Of a stretch of DNA of 6,934 bases, positions 594 through 6,639 are shown piece by piece. The notes beneath the pieces were generated by a model that was not told the DNA's origin, searched no databases, and was given only the letters and a program-made list of their open reading frames with translations. This DNA is from Candidatus Mcinerneyibacteriota bacterium (lineage in GTDB: Bacteria > AUK180 > JAQVHJ01). The DNA lies in NCBI GenBank assembly GCA_030630935.1, contig DAOVMD010000164.1, forward strand, positions 1 to 6,934, given 5' to 3'. The stretch's first letter is position 1. The number at the start of each line of letters is the position of its first letter. A program made the position numbers and the translations under genes.

Positions 594-1292
594 TTACATA
601 AATTTATTTGATATTGATTGAAGGACACCAAGGTAAATCATTACACCTACAGCTATAAGGAAAATACCAGCAATGATTTCTATTACTTTAAAATGTTTTT
701 GGATCTTTTTAAATAATGAAAAGAATAATCTTAAACTTAATGCAGTAATAAAGAATGGAATTGCAAGTCCAAGAGAATAGGTTGCTAATAAAAGAACTCC
801 ATGAGTTAACTGCCCTTTTTGACTCGCCATAAAAAGAATCGGAGCAAGGATAGGTCCAATACAGGGAGTCCAGCCAAATGCAAATGCTATTCCCATTAGA
901 AAACCTTTAACGGAACCAACTTTACCGCTTTGACTATGAAATTTCTTCTCATAAAGGAGAAACTTCAACTGAAATATTCCTGTCATATGAAGACCGAATA
1001 TTACAACAACTACACCCGCTACTTTTTGGATGATATTCATGTGATTTTCTAAAAAGGAACCGATGAATGTTGCAGTCGCTCCCAATAAAATGAATATTAA
1101 TGAAAACCCAAGGATAAATGCTAACGATGCCCATATAACCTTTCCAAACGCTCCCGATGTTTTGTTTTTAATATCATCAAGTGCAACTCCTGAAAAGAGA
1201 GAGAGGTATCCGGGAACAAGCGGTAATACACACGGTGTGAAGAATGATATTAACCCAGCAAAAAATGCGGTTAGAAATGAAACATTTTCCAT
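594..1292 (-). CDS. ccdA: CcdA/DsbD-type transmembrane thiol-disulfide reductant carrier
   Basis: This 232-residue, almost entirely hydrophobic protein belongs to the cytochrome c biogenesis CcdA family (DsbD transmembrane domain). Such proteins pass electrons from cytoplasmic thioredoxin across the inner membrane to periplasmic thiol proteins, for example for haem attachment to c-type cytochromes. The two diagnostic cysteines are present: C21 in TPCVLPLVPGYL near the N-terminus and C144 in GWTPCIGP. About six membrane helices can be drawn, and the length is normal for CcdA. I chose the ATG at 1292 because GAGGA (1304-1300) lies 7 nt upstream. The frame extends upstream to a TTG at 1313 that has no such site. 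No thioredoxin-like partner or cytochrome gene lies in the window, so its client is unknown. It is transcribed divergently from the lipoprotein block. Confidence 0.93.
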   Translation of the reverse strand: MENVSFLTAFFAGLISFFTPCVLPLVPGYLSLFSGVALDDIKNKTSGAFGKVIWASLAFILGFSLIFILLGATATFIGSFLENHMNIIQKVAGVVVVIFGLHMTGIFQLKFLLYEKKFHSQSGKVGSVKGFLMGIAFAFGWTPCIGPILAPILFMASQKGQLTHGVLLLATYSLGLAIPFFITALSLRLFFSLFKKIQKHFKVIEIIAGIFLIAVGVMIYLGVLQSISNKFM

Positions 1293-2240: not shown

Positions 2241-2336
2241 TTTAAAAATTTTTACTTTGAATTATTATTCATTTTACTTTTAAAATAAAAGAATATTAGA
2301 GTCATTGGGAGCAATAAACTTCCAATGACTCTTTTT
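2230..2336 (+). pseudogene. Relic of a propeller-lipoprotein gene start behind paralog 1
   Basis: A GTG at 2230 overlaps the end of paralog 1 by 11 nt, exactly as the GTG at 3270 overlaps paralog 2 (GTGAGGAATAA versus GTGACGAATAG). It encodes MRNNLKIFTLNYYSFYF and then stops at 2281-2283. The intact gene at 3270 begins MTNSFRFKTL and continues to SFYFSSC, so the start and the SFYF before the lipobox match. Nucleotide similarity continues past the stop: ttttactttt, ataaaagaa, gtcattggga and the terminator stem are shared. About 9 nt within the signal peptide and 5 nt after SFYF are missing relative to the intact copy, and homology fades just after the T tract. I read this as the truncated copy left by a tandem duplication. 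Confidence 0.7.
2298..2336 (+). terminator. Rho-independent terminator after paralog 1
   Basis: A 14-bp stem (2298-2311 with 2319-2332, one G-T wobble) with loop caataaa runs directly into T residues ending at 2336. It begins 57 nt after the stop codon. It aligns without gaps to the intragenic hairpin at 3353-3393. Confidence 0.9.
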
Positions 2337-2497: not shown

Positions 2498-3280
2498 ATG
2501 AGTAAGAAATTAGTTTATCTATTTATTGCTCTGGCATTGCTGTCTTTTGCAAGCTGTATTAATTATGATAATGAGATTACCTTGAATAATGATGGCTCGG
2601 GTAAAATTCATATTCATTATTGGATGGCTGAGTCCATGTATAACATGATGAAAGGTCAACCCCCGAAAGAGGGAGAAGCCCCGAAAGCTGATCCATTCTC
2701 TGAAGAGGAAGTTGCCAAGAGTTATCAGGGCGAAGGTTTAAAGGTCAGTGGTTTCAAAACATTTAAAGATGAAGAAAAGGAACCCAATCGTCATGTTGAG
2801 TTAGATGTTTCTTTTACGAATATCACCAATCTTTCTAATTGTAAAGAATTTGAAAAATGGGTATTCCAATTCGATGCAAAAGACTCGATTGTTTTCTCGG
2901 CAGTTTTACCTCCGGAAGCGAAACCGGATAAAGAGATGACCGAAGAAGAGAAGAAAAGTGCCAAGTCTGCTTCAGATATGTTAGCAGGATATTCCTATAC
3001 AATGACAATAAAATTTCCTGGTAAAGTACTTGAGACAAGTGGAACAATTGATACGGAAGATCCCACGAAAGTAAAATGGACCACAACTATGTCCGCAAAG
3101 AATGATGAAGGGATGAACCTTACCGCAAAGGTAGAGAAAGGCAAAGGTGCTGGTGGACCATTACCTTTAATTATTTTCGGTGGTTTTATTGTCGTAATTA
3201 TCATAATTGCAATTGTCGCCGGCGGCAAGAAGAAAGGCGCACCTGAAGTAGTAACTGAAGAAGTTCCAGGTGACGAATAG
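2498..3280 (+). CDS. Lipoprotein with C-terminal membrane helix, paralog 2
   Basis: This 260-residue paralog of the gene at 1476 has the same plan. It has a signal peptide with lipobox FASC (C20), then NNDGSGKIHIHYWM, a Pro/Glu/Lys loop (about 53-70), HVELDV and NITNLSNC (about 99-115). A charged insert (about 141-160) is absent or shorter in paralog 1. A membrane helix (about 221-242) is followed by GGKKKG and an acidic tail. The helix centre IVVIIIIAIVAG is identical in both copies. C115 is the only cysteine besides the lipidated one. The start is fixed by AAAGGAGGT 4 nt upstream of the ATG. The last 11 nt overlap the GTG start of the propeller gene, and this gene is first in a five-gene overlapping run. 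Expected location: periplasmic face of the inner membrane, with a short cytoplasmic tail. Function unknown; LppM/DUF3153-like topology is only a suggestion. Confidence 0.9.
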   Translation: MSKKLVYLFIALALLSFASCINYDNEITLNNDGSGKIHIHYWMAESMYNMMKGQPPKEGEAPKADPFSEEEVAKSYQGEGLKVSGFKTFKDEEKEPNRHVELDVSFTNITNLSNCKEFEKWVFQFDAKDSIVFSAVLPPEAKPDKEMTEEEKKSAKSASDMLAGYSYTMTIKFPGKVLETSGTIDTEDPTKVKWTTTMSAKNDEGMNLTAKVEKGKGAGGPLPLIIFGGFIVVIIIIAIVAGGKKKGAPEVVTEEVPGDE

Positions 3281-4262
3281 TTTCAGGTTTAAGACATTAA
3301 TATTTTTTATATTAATTAGTTTTTACTTTTCAAGTTGTATAAAAGAAGATACGGGTCATTGGGATGTAAATCATCCCGATGACTCTTTTTTTTCAAGTGT
3401 GATTATTAATGATATTTATTTTGATGATATTGGTCATGCATGGGTTGGAACGGATTCCGGGTTATATCTCCTGGAAGATGAAGAGATAATTAGTTCTTTT
3501 ACAACATCCAATGGTTTACCATCAAACTTTATCACTTCAATCATTCAAGATTCCCATGGACATATTTGGATAGGCACTCGTAAATCGGGTGTTGCTTTTA
3601 GAAAGGGTGGTGAGTGGTTCACAGTTACAACAGATGACGGTCTTGCTGATAACCATATCTCCTGTTTTTATCTTCGAGATAATGGAGATCTCTGGATTGG
3701 AACAGATGATGCTGTTTCGGTTTATATAGCAGGGACCTGGCTCAAGTATCGGATAGTCAATGGTAAATGGAACCATTATCCATCCGCAATCAAATCGGAT
3801 GGTGATGGAAATATATGGGTTACACTGGAATGGATCTCAGGGATAAATGTTTATGATGGTATTGATTGGATACATTACGGGACGAATATTGGGTTACCTA
3901 CGGACTATTTTACATCTGCATCTTATGGGTTAGGTAAGATGTGGTTGGGAACTAATGCCTTTGGAGTCATTTCATTTGACGGAGTAACCTGGGAGAATTA
4001 TACAATTGACGATGGTTTGATTAATGATCATGTTTCGTATGTATTTTGTGATTCACACGGATCTCTCTGGGTAGGAACTAATAATGGTCTTTCGAAATAT
4101 GATGGAAAGACCTGGAGTTCATTCACAAGTAATAATTCCGGTATCCCCGGGAATAGAATAAATGTTATTAATGAAGATAACCAGGGTCGAATCTGGATCG
4201 GAACAAATAACGGAATAGGAATTTATAGTGAAGAAGAAAGAGGTATTTTATTTTTTCCTTAG
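3270..4262 (+). CDS. Seven-bladed beta-propeller lipoprotein (two-component-regulator propeller repeats)
   Basis: The 330-residue product has a lipoprotein signal (hydrophobic 9-20, lipobox FSSC, C23) and then seven repeats of the Reg_prop type. Their signature WxGT tryptophans fall at residues 58, 100, 142, 183, 225, 267 and 309, spaced 41-42 residues apart. Typical linkers such as NGLPSN, DDGLADNH and YDGxxW are present. Seven repeats are enough for one closed propeller. In Bacteroidetes hybrid two-component systems such repeats form the periplasmic sensor, usually as two propellers fused to a kinase; here the propeller stands alone without any kinase domain. Blade 4 is divergent (NIWVTL instead of WxGT). 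The start is a GTG overlapping paralog 2 by 11 nt with only a weak purine stretch upstream, which suggests translational coupling. A terminator hairpin lies inside codons 28-42. Ligand or partner unknown. Confidence 0.9.
   Translation: MTNSFRFKTLIFFILISFYFSSCIKEDTGHWDVNHPDDSFFSSVIINDIYFDDIGHAWVGTDSGLYLLEDEEIISSFTTSNGLPSNFITSIIQDSHGHIWIGTRKSGVAFRKGGEWFTVTTDDGLADNHISCFYLRDNGDLWIGTDDAVSVYIAGTWLKYRIVNGKWNHYPSAIKSDGDGNIWVTLEWISGINVYDGIDWIHYGTNIGLPTDYFTSASYGLGKMWLGTNAFGVISFDGVTWENYTIDDGLINDHVSYVFCDSHGSLWVGTNNGLSKYDGKTWSSFTSNNSGIPGNRINVINEDNQGRIWIGTNNGIGIYSEEERGILFFP
3353..3393 (+). terminator. Intragenic rho-independent terminator/attenuator in the propeller gene
   Basis: A 14-bp stem (3353-3366 with 3372-3385, two G-U pairs) with loop taaat is followed immediately by eight T residues (3386-3393). 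It begins 72 nt after the paralog 2 stop and encodes the segment around GHWDVNHPDDSFF of the propeller protein. It is homologous to the terminator at 2298-2336. Full termination here would yield a short mRNA for paralog 2 alone, while read-through would give the five-gene message. A ribosome entering at the GTG 83 nt upstream could prevent folding; that mechanism is inference. Confidence 0.82.
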
Positions 4263-5493
4263 TTTAATATTTTTATTGACTTTCGTAAGGTTTGTCTCAG
4301 CCGAAAATGAAAATCTCAATATTTGGTTTGAATACAAAATTCGCGGAAATTATGGCAACCTCCCACAGCAACCGGAATTTCTGGAGAAAGGATACTGGTG
4401 GTGGAAAGAGGGGACACTCGGGTATTGGGAGAACAGCTTATCAATTACAGCTAAAGGCTGTGAGCATTTTGGGGGTTATCCTGTTAAATATTTACTTGAA
4501 ATCGGAACAGTTTCTACAAAAGACAAAAGAGATTACGAAGTCTGGTCAGATGATTATTCTCCAGCATTAAAAATGAAACAGGCGAATGTTGAGTTTGGAT
4601 ATATGGGGTTTTATTTAAAAGCCGGTAAAACACTTTTGGAATTTCCTTTGTTCTTTAAGGACAGAGTTTATGGAGCAATTGCCGGTTATAGATTTCGAAA
4701 ACAAAATTCGGATGAGTTGAAAACATTTCAACTTGAAATTAACTGGTACCAGATCATGGCGTATGAAGGGAAGTATATTGAAGAAGATATAAATTACAAT
4801 GACGATATTGATTTACAAGGAGGTGAGATTTCCATAGATTTTAATAGCAAGAAGTGGTACGATGCTTGTATTACATCAGTTAAACGAACAAATTTGATAT
4901 TTCAAAATAAAATTTTTATATTTAAATTAACGGATGCAGGGAGTGGTCGGTTAGGAAGCAATGTCAATATTTATGGTGGAAACATAAAAATCGGAACCGA
5001 GTATAAATTCATTGAATTCGGATATTGTCATCAACAGGGAGATTATTACGGGTATGAATTGAAGGATTATTTATATCGGTATAAATTCGAAACAACTGGA
5101 AGAGTTATTTTTGGTGGTACAATTGTAATTAATGCTGAGTTTTTAGGTCGTGGTTCGAAGAAGGGATACAATGAGAATTATTCATTCTTCAACCTATTAG
5201 AAGAGCCTGTATTAGATAATTACATTTTCAAGCCCAGTCCCGCAATGGTTGACCGCTTAAGTTTTGAGTTGACTTATGAGTATGGATTTGATAAAATAGA
5301 GAATATAAGTCTTGATCTTTTATATTTGATTTATCATTTTGACCATGCTGACTATAACACCGGTGAAGAGTTCAATCTCAAGTTCACGGTTGGTATTAAC
5401 GAGAACCTTAATTTAGACTTTGCCCTTGGAGTCAGCAGCTTCAATGGATTTTATAAAGGAGTATTTTTAACATACAGAGGAAAAATTCTATGA
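4228..5493 (+). CDS. Predicted outer-membrane beta-barrel protein
   Basis: This 421-residue protein has a classical signal peptide (KKK, hydrophobic stretch, cleavage expected after VSA at residue 25). It continues as an aromatic-rich sequence of alternating polar and hydrophobic residues typical of outer-membrane beta strands, e.g. LNIWFEYKIRG, VEFGYMGFYLKAG, KIGTEYKFIEFGYCHQQG, LSFELTYEYGF and GVFLTYRGKIL at the end. It lacks a lipobox and internal membrane helices. I do not recognise a named porin family, and the last residue is not the usual Phe/Trp. The start is a GTG with AGGA (4217-4220) 7 nt upstream, and the gene overlaps the propeller gene by 35 nt. Its 3' end overlaps the thioesterase start by ATGA. 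A role as channel or surface partner of the propeller lipoprotein is possible but unproven. Confidence 0.75.
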   Translation: MKKKEVFYFFLSLIFLLTFVRFVSAENENLNIWFEYKIRGNYGNLPQQPEFLEKGYWWWKEGTLGYWENSLSITAKGCEHFGGYPVKYLLEIGTVSTKDKRDYEVWSDDYSPALKMKQANVEFGYMGFYLKAGKTLLEFPLFFKDRVYGAIAGYRFRKQNSDELKTFQLEINWYQIMAYEGKYIEEDINYNDDIDLQGGEISIDFNSKKWYDACITSVKRTNLIFQNKIFIFKLTDAGSGRLGSNVNIYGGNIKIGTEYKFIEFGYCHQQGDYYGYELKDYLYRYKFETTGRVIFGGTIVINAEFLGRGSKKGYNENYSFFNLLEEPVLDNYIFKPSPAMVDRLSFELTYEYGFDKIENISLDLLYLIYHFDHADYNTGEEFNLKFTVGINENLNLDFALGVSSFNGFYKGVFLTYRGKIL

Positions 5494-5888
5494 TAACAGA
5501 AGAACGAGTGAGATACGTTGAGACAGATAAAATGAGTGTAGTTCATCATTCAGTTTATTTTCATTGGTTTGAGGTTGGCCGGACTGAGCTGATGAGAAGT
5601 TTGGGAATGTCTTATAAGGAGATGGAAGAATCAGGTGTAATAATTCCGGTCATTGAAACACATTGTAAATATATCGCACCTGCTGCATATGATGATATCA
5701 TTTTAATTAAAACCGAGATTAAAGAGAAATCAAGAGTTACTATTACATTTGATTATCAGATTACTAAGAAAAAGAATAATAAAGTTTTAGTTAAGGGTTG
5801 GACAAAACATACTTTCATAAACCAGGAGGGAAAAATCATTGAACTTCCAAAAGATTTCCTGAAGCAGATTAAGAAACATGAAAAATAA
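5490..5888 (+). CDS. YbgC/FadM-like acyl-CoA thioesterase (4HBT hotdog fold)
   Basis: The 132-residue protein has the length and motif order of single-domain hotdog thioesterases that hydrolyse acyl-CoA or related thioesters in the cytoplasm. The N-terminal block VRYVETDKMSVVHHSVY followed by FHWFEVGRTELMR corresponds to the family's Y-x-x-T-D-x-x-G-V-V-x-H/N-x-x-Y motif, with D13 as the expected catalytic aspartate. The usual Gly of that motif is Ser16. Later segments (THCKYIAPAAYDD, VTITFDYQI, VLVKGWTKHTFIN) match the central sheet. The start ATG overlaps the upstream stop as ATGA, with AGAGGA (5476-5481) 8 nt before it. The 3' end overlaps the next gene by 11 nt. The substrate cannot be inferred. 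YbgC often neighbours tol-pal envelope genes, but no tol gene is seen here. Confidence 0.88.
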   Translation: MITEERVRYVETDKMSVVHHSVYFHWFEVGRTELMRSLGMSYKEMEESGVIIPVIETHCKYIAPAAYDDIILIKTEIKEKSRVTITFDYQITKKKNNKVLVKGWTKHTFINQEGKIIELPKDFLKQIKKHEK

Positions 5889-6639
5889 AAAAACTTTCCC
5901 GGACCTCAGCATTTTTTTTCTGGAATTATTTAATCTATCATTAAATCCTGAAGATTTTAAAAAGGATTATTATCCTAATGAATTTAAATATGCAAGATTT
6001 GAGATCATTGAATATGTTAACGACCAGATTGAAGATGATGAGATTAATTTTTCGAGTATAGAAGATTTAAAACAAATTATTTTAATTTCTTCTTTTGAAT
6101 ATAATGAAAAAAAATATAATATTAAGAATTCTTTCCAGTTTAAGAATTCAGGTAAATGGAGAGCAAAGCTTTCGTTTCAACTTGAGAGAATATTCAAGAA
6201 AATTATCTTTAGAAAGATTCCTAAGTTAAAAATAACACTTACAATAAAGAGTAAGTTACGCGAGAAGAGTTTGAAACTATCACAGAAGCTGGCTTCTTAT
6301 GACCTGCTTAATGTTGTAAATGAAGTTTTCTTTGGAAAATATTCATTTTTAACCGATAAGGAAAAATTGAAGGAGGATATTGAGAAATATTTAAAATCAA
6401 TTTATCTTACCGGAGTTCAGGATAATATTAATCTTTCAAAGCGTGTTTTTTTTATCACATTGCCTTTTACATATATTCCGAATCTTGAACTTGATAATTT
6501 AATCGACTATAATTATACGAAAAACTTTCTTTTTAATGCAATCGACAGTTTATTTGACATTGAGGGGGAAGCTATGTTAATGTATTCAATTGATGATTTA
6601 GAAGTCCTGGCGATTACTTTACTTGAGGAAGATCTGTAA
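5878..6639 (+). CDS. Conserved-context hypothetical protein, Lys/Ile/Asn-rich
   Basis: I do not recognise this 253-residue protein. It has no signal peptide, no clear membrane helix and no cysteine, so it is probably cytoplasmic. The N-terminal half is acidic and aromatic (NEFKYARFEIIEYVNDQIEDDE). A basic central stretch, about residues 98-135, contains IFKKIIFRKIPKLKITL and KSKLREKSLKLSQK, and the remainder is predicted mostly helical with an acidic C-terminus (ITLLEEDL). Its ATG lies inside the end of the thioesterase gene (11-nt overlap) with no good SD, so translational coupling is likely. It is the last gene of the overlapping run, and its DNA looks more A/T-rich than its neighbours. It is a genuine gene by length and context; function unknown. 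Confidence 0.78.
   Translation: MKNKKTFPDLSIFFLELFNLSLNPEDFKKDYYPNEFKYARFEIIEYVNDQIEDDEINFSSIEDLKQIILISSFEYNEKKYNIKNSFQFKNSGKWRAKLSFQLERIFKKIIFRKIPKLKITLTIKSKLREKSLKLSQKLASYDLLNVVNEVFFGKYSFLTDKEKLKEDIEKYLKSIYLTGVQDNINLSKRVFFITLPFTYIPNLELDNLIDYNYTKNFLFNAIDSLFDIEGEAMLMYSIDDLEVLAITLLEEDL

Follow-up and report, generated by a model that had tools for sequence, protein, structure and literature searches.

Terminators in translated reading frames

Intrinsic terminators inside genes have been predicted by the thousand, and most of them are dismissed as chance occurrences or as masked by ribosomes. In the pyrBI attenuator of Escherichia coli, the reading frame involved has its own promoter and encodes a short leader peptide that is dispensable, and the system responds to UTP. 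The pyrBI intrinsic terminator lies in frame in this translated 5′ reading frame, which extends beyond the hairpin, and it gates the downstream genes (cited in PMC4824070). In the pil1 operon of Streptococcus gallolyticus, passage of the ribosome through a terminator hairpin in the leader peptide frame decides whether the operon is read through, and the leader varies in length with repeat number (phase variation; PMC3894217). Rho-independent terminators can overlap a neighbouring gene, and ORF-internal 3′ ends occur in E. coli (PMC7815308; PMC4824070). In the synthetic Terminator Operon Reporter the strong T1 terminator is translated in frame and stands between an upstream product and a downstream gene (PMC4879669). 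Such translated in-frame terminators can be silenced (PMC4879669; PMC3894217). In E. coli, a terminator that falls within the first 100 bp of coding sequence acts efficiently, as the ribosome lags behind, and in the same system stop-to-hairpin distances of >27 nt gave full termination (PMC4824070). No precedent for intragenic terminators conserved across genera was matched in the literature searched, with most subscription journals outside the scope of the search.

The DNA analysed here (the window) is a 6,934-nucleotide stretch from a Candidatus Mcinerneyibacteriota bacterium. It carries a hairpin and T tract at 3353-3393, which are read here, with a probability of roughly 0.72, as a Rho-independent terminator of the upstream gene (lipoprotein paralog 2) that lies across the 5′ coding sequence of the next gene and would attenuate the genes downstream. 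As in pyrBI, the putative terminator is within a translated frame upstream of the genes that it would control, four of them including the gene that it splits. Unlike in pyrBI, the operon's first promoter is not followed by a short peptide that serves only as leader; the frame is instead the N-terminus of a 330-aa lipoprotein and follows a full upstream gene. The arrangement can likewise be likened to pil1, but here the frame has no repeats and always spans the hairpin. It shares an intrinsic terminator at a gene junction within coding sequence with the ORF-internal E. coli cases, and differs from them in its conservation by matched changes under amino acid drift and in having related copies that are plain 3′-UTR terminators of paralogs. 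The Terminator Operon Reporter is an engineered system in which the terminator ends the upstream frame, whereas here it lies at the start of the downstream one. Selection would in this case keep an in-gene hairpin across genera inside a real coding region, with matched changes that alter the protein, and one terminator would function both in a 3′ UTR and as coding sequence. The locus thus offers a clean natural setting in which to test how an RNA switch shapes a protein linker, and an operon prediction made from gene overlap alone would miss the break at 3353-3393.

Gene content of the locus

Two lipoprotein paralogs lie on the forward strand of the window, paralog 1 at 1476-2240 and paralog 2 at 2498-3280. 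Paralog 2, whose transcript the hairpin would end, displays weak LppM-domain similarity (PF21946, E 1.1e-5, slightly below the curated cut-off) and is 61% identical to its counterpart in G001, a genome of another genus in the same family as the window's genome (G000). A sigma-70-like promoter candidate for paralog 2 is present at 2435-2463 on the forward strand (TTGACT-17-TATTAT with an extended TG; a consensus match only), and a similar promoter-like site occupies the equivalent place in G001 (contig L033, 3666-3694). All the lipoprotein paralogs come with a good promoter-like site and with AGGAGGT as ribosome site. A consensus scan found no forward promoter-like site of at least 9/12 between 3078 and 4811; it is possible that the downstream genes have an independent promoter, since consensus scans miss other sigma factors. 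No terminator for paralog 2 was found other than the in-gene hairpin.

The next gene (3270-4262, forward strand) starts with GTG and encodes the 330-aa propeller lipoprotein, with a hydrophobic signal stretch, a lipobox (...FSSC) that ends at Cys-23, and four Reg_prop stretches (PF07494, Pfam E 1.7e-31). Its N-terminus is 53% identical to that of the G001 ortholog. The Reg_prop stretches, the signal and lipobox, and an N-terminal ortholog in another genus together mark this predicted reading frame as a real gene. Its GTG lies over the stop codon of paralog 2 (3278-3280) in an 11-nt start/stop overlap on the forward strand (3270-3280, GTGACGAATAG), and no clear Shine-Dalgarno sequence precedes GTG 3270. 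The first-pass annotation had reported that the GTG overlaps paralog 2, and G001 keeps the 11-nt GTG/stop overlap as GTGAGGAATAG.

Three more forward-strand genes follow. The gene at 4228-5493 overlaps the propeller gene and encodes a 421-aa protein that is 58% identical to its G001 counterpart (C150) and has no Pfam match; a barrel-like outer-membrane protein would be a guess. It is overlapped in turn by a 4HBT thioesterase gene (5490-5888; PF03061/PF13279), and the last gene of the group (5878-6639) encodes a 253-aa protein with no assigned family. The proposal that the hairpin would split a five-gene operon is backed by this sequence evidence and by the second genome. G001 contig L128 begins inside the propeller gene, whose last codons read F-G-T-N-N-G-I-G-I-Y-S-E-E-T-R-D-I-L-F-F-P-stop (bases 3-68, read by eye; the window counterpart is IGTNNGIGIYSEEERGILFFP), and continues with the 421-aa homolog, the thioesterase in the same place, and a homologous open reading frame for the 253-aa protein (L128 1744-2538), in the order found in the window. 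By this comparison of predicted genes, the order propeller, 421 aa, thioesterase, 253 aa is conserved in G001.

The 5′ part of the G001 operon is on contig L033 (4649 bases, public as JAQVHJ010000240.1, from a metagenome-assembled bacterium). It contains ccdA-like and transposase-like genes and three lipoprotein paralogs, and it includes codons 1-54 of the propeller gene. A search of GTDB 220 genome contigs with a paralog profile for more orthologs recovered the G001 contig alone, and a search across the class and the phylum (7 genomes each) gave orthologs in G000 and G001 only. Both assemblies are fragmented (completeness 80% for G000 and 72% for G001), and with the operon found in two genomes, conservation here means one pairwise inter-genus comparison plus the paralogous copies.

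The in-gene hairpin and its conservation

The hairpin (3353-3385, forward strand) occupies codons 28-39 of the propeller gene. Its arms, GGGTCATTGGGATG (3353-3366) and CATCCCGATGACTC (3372-3385), form 14 pairs without a mismatch, seven of them G-C and two G.U wobbles, and enclose the 5-nt loop TAAAT. A run of eight Ts (3386-3393, forward strand) abuts the stem without a spacer and encodes the end of Ser-39, Phe-40, Phe-41 and the first base of Ser-42, so that hairpin and T8 together run from the last base of codon 28 into codon 42, counting GTG 3270 as codon 1. The hairpin begins 83 nt past that GTG and 73 nt past the paralog-2 stop. The 14-bp stem, 5-nt loop and T8 that the first-pass annotation placed at 3353-3393 proved correct to the base, and its placement in codons 28-42, past the lipidated cysteine, agrees with the cysteine at codon 23. 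Thermodynamic folding, which it had suggested as a check, gave -26.3 kcal/mol for 56 nt (z -6.2), a stability matched by 0/200 dinucleotide shuffles. Thus 3353-3393 is a stable, G+C-containing hairpin followed by a U tract, as expected of an intrinsic terminator. The window has 0 matches to Rfam cis-regulatory RNAs at the gathering score, and a known riboswitch or leader RNA was rejected on that ground.

Alignment with the orthologous operon had likewise been proposed as a check, and stem and T8 are kept in G001 in spite of the coding drift. From codon 28 onward the G001 gene reads GAGTCATTGGGAGTC AGG GACTCCCGGTGACTC TTTTTTTT, which forms 15 pairs (L033 4573-4605) followed by an identical T8 (4606-4613) in the same codons as in the window. 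Relative to the window, outer pair 2 has changed in G001 from G.T to A-T, pair 7 from T-A to T.G, inner pair 13 from T-A to G-C and pair 14 from G-C to T-A; the two-sided changes at pairs 13 and 14 alter residues in both arms (DVNH to ESGT). Synonymous sites between the two genomes are near saturation: at third positions of shared V, P, T, A and G residues in three neighbouring genes, fourfold-degenerate identity is 13/45, 16/53 and 19/57 (29-33%), about the level of chance. The hairpin is, by the matched base changes in this alignment, conserved between the genera, and both the stem and the U tract have been retained in evolution. Among the first 54 propeller codons (window 3270-3420), 23/27 shared residues use the identical codon, as against 36-49% in other genes. 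This excess is larger than the hairpin alone would give and could possibly reflect another RNA-level constraint, with the small numbers and AT-biased codons to be kept in mind.

Chance background was assessed in about 414 kb sampled from G000 (about 357 kb of it coding) and 117 kb from G001; rates of the 28 kb-per-event kind from such a partial genome sample are approximate. In the G000 sample, no sense-strand in-gene hairpin other than 3353-3393 reaches <= -16 kcal/mol and has a T-rich tail, and no other in-gene hairpin of at least 10 pairs ends in a full T8. The antisense strand of genes, a rough control for chance, gave two hairpins at <= -16 kcal/mol, both without a solid T run (TTGATCTT, TTTAATAT), and seven terminator-like hairpins of this stability are intergenic. 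Synonymous recoding of the window's 17 residues gave an equal or better fold in 23/20,000 draws, with T8 in 0 of the 23, and recoding of the G001 hairpin residues reached the native fold in 0/20,000 draws. When recoding was scored for this particular register, the window protein alone gave a mean of 11.1/14 pairs; part of the stem is therefore free once the protein is given, since its residues favour pairing. All pairs formed in 0.9% of window draws and 0.014% of G001 draws, and all pairs plus T8 in 0.08% (8e-4) and 0.0011% (about 1e-5), respectively. The encoded residues help to build the stem but do not suffice, and the 3353-3393 hairpin is non-random.

These figures bear directly on the idea that the hairpin is a relic without function, a leftover terminator in coding sequence that is retained by the protein sequence alone. 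The window residues do favour 11/14 pairs, and H-W, P and D-S-F-F are common to both proteins. But the complete stem with T8 is so rare among recodings of either protein, and the inner-stem residues differ in both arms with pairing intact while silent sites elsewhere have been nearly randomized, that a relic seems very unlikely.

Related hairpins behind the lipoprotein paralogs

A related hairpin follows paralog 1 in its 3′ UTR (2299-2335, forward strand), with stem core GAGTCATTGGGAG...CTTCCAATGACTC, a T5 tract and a folding energy of -22.1 kcal/mol in 61-nt context. In G001, one paralog hairpin (ATCATTGGGAGG...CCTCCCAATGAT, L033 2482-2512) has kept the stem and lost the T tract, and another (ACGGTAATCGGGAG...CTCCCGATTACCGT) has T5. 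Over the five hairpins of the locus 94% of cells pair, and 7/14 pairs show two-sided changes. Their covariation score is 0.42 against 0.22 in shuffles (0/500 reach 0.42), which do not remove the relatedness of the five, and against <=0.14 in slid controls, a somewhat flattering comparison in that the hairpins were aligned by sequence and the structure was drawn from the window's stem. The core TCATTGGGA..TCCCRRTGA is confined to this locus in both genomes; a genome-wide dispersed hairpin repeat was rejected, as the pattern is absent elsewhere in G000 and G001. The five hairpins are probably related, being the terminators of a tandem cassette made up of promoter, lipoprotein gene and terminator, and in the last cassette the putative terminator probably sits within the next gene. 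Because related terminators, which the first-pass annotation had overlooked, trail the paralogs at this locus, a paralog-2 terminator overlapped by the next gene is the simpler description.

The 5′ end of the propeller gene may itself have such an origin. With the hairpin included, the paralog-1 UTR matches the window propeller 5′ end in a whole-genome BLAST (E 1.2e-4). For the part upstream of the hairpin the likeness is modest (7/2000 shuffles and 3/484 AT-rich intergenic pieces score as well), and that part shows no likeness to the corresponding part of the G001 propeller gene (846/2000 shuffles as good). It is conceivable, though unlikely, that the start, the U-rich signal-peptide stretch and the linker were gained when a U-rich 3′ UTR and terminator, those of a tandemly duplicated lipoprotein cassette, came to be read as coding sequence, and that selection then preserved the old terminator as a built-in switch for the downstream genes. 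The history could equally have run the other way, with the paralog-1 3′ UTR descending by decay from the 5′ end of the propeller gene. The third G001 lipoprotein paralog (L033 1743-2453) has its C-terminal membrane segment replaced and a 3′ hairpin without a T tract; it is possibly a decaying or diverging copy.

Proposed attenuation and its alternatives

In the simplest model the paralog-2 promoter would drive all five genes. RNA polymerase starting there would yield the lipoprotein message, most transcripts would stop at T8, about 110 nt beyond the paralog-2 stop codon, and the minority that read through would supply the propeller protein, the 421-aa protein, the thioesterase and the 253-aa protein at lower dose. 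The predicted in-gene terminator would then probably work as a switch that yields one abundant message and, more rarely, a long one. We infer that 3353-3393 terminates, how strongly it does so, and that the downstream genes depend on read-through. The residues encoded by the hairpin appear to be no more than a loose linker that joins the lipid anchor to the first propeller blade, so the protein could tolerate the RNA constraint. A cost counts against this reading: a terminator inside a translated message would yield non-stop mRNA.

On a role for translation, published cases argue in either direction. Ribosomes that re-initiate at the overlapping GTG might, as the first-pass annotation proposed, raise read-through; the suggestion is plausible but tentative. 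A stricter arrangement, in which ribosomes re-initiating at GTG 3270 normally melt the hairpin and the downstream genes need leader translation as in pyrBI or pil1, appears rather unlikely. Both genomes retain the overlap GTGANGAATAG and a GTG-to-hairpin spacing of 83-86 nt, the hairpin lies in frame in the N-terminal part that is translated, and translation across an in-frame terminator abolishes termination in E. coli (PMC4879669) and in S. gallolyticus pil1 (PMC3894217). The GTG, however, lacks a clear Shine-Dalgarno sequence, no candidate signal is known, and terminators so near the start of a coding region work efficiently in E. coli (PMC4824070). Nor is a conserved competing antiterminator fold evident: single-sequence folds of 161-164 nt from the two genomes, two sequences only, have no competing stem in common and keep the terminator stem. 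We favour partial termination, with coupling that is modest or conditional, over a strict translation switch, since the hairpin, 83 nt past the GTG and 73 nt past the preceding stop, lies where the E. coli terminator work would predict termination.

Alternatively, the stem could act mainly as a 3′-end or stability element that shields a processed paralog-2 message from 3′ exonucleases, with little primary termination. The same stem family trails other lipoprotein genes, and the G001 copy without a T tract (L033 2482-2512) fits such a role, but a pure stability stem would not need the T8 that both in-gene copies keep at all synonymous positions, which makes this quite unlikely as the main function. 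T8 behind a hairpin is also a plausible slippage signal, at which polymerase would slip and give a truncated short lipoprotein in other frames; the +1 and -1 frames end after 2-7 codons in both genomes. Early stops are, however, expected in an AT-rich gene, no alternative product is conserved, and the related 3′-UTR copies need no reading frame. Slippage is highly improbable and was rejected, as the alternative frames close at once. Termination behind paralog 2 with partial read-through remains the preferred reading.

Sequences flanking the lipoprotein array

A CcdA/DsbD-type membrane protein gene (window 594-1292, minus strand) adjoins the lipoprotein array in both genomes. In G001 a transposase-like gene (L033 739-1647, MTRLSRIDKPGYYYHVISRGQRKETLF...), which by eye resembles REP-associated transposases, lies between the ccdA-like gene and the array; it is not in the window. 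The window has two copies of a tctcagctttctgttctcgattcggttaacagagttaacc element (296-345 and 536-592), and related inverted repeats (GTTCGGTTAACAGAGTTAACCGAAT and similar) occur in G000 contigs L053 and L062. From its distribution this element looks like a dispersed intergenic repeat.
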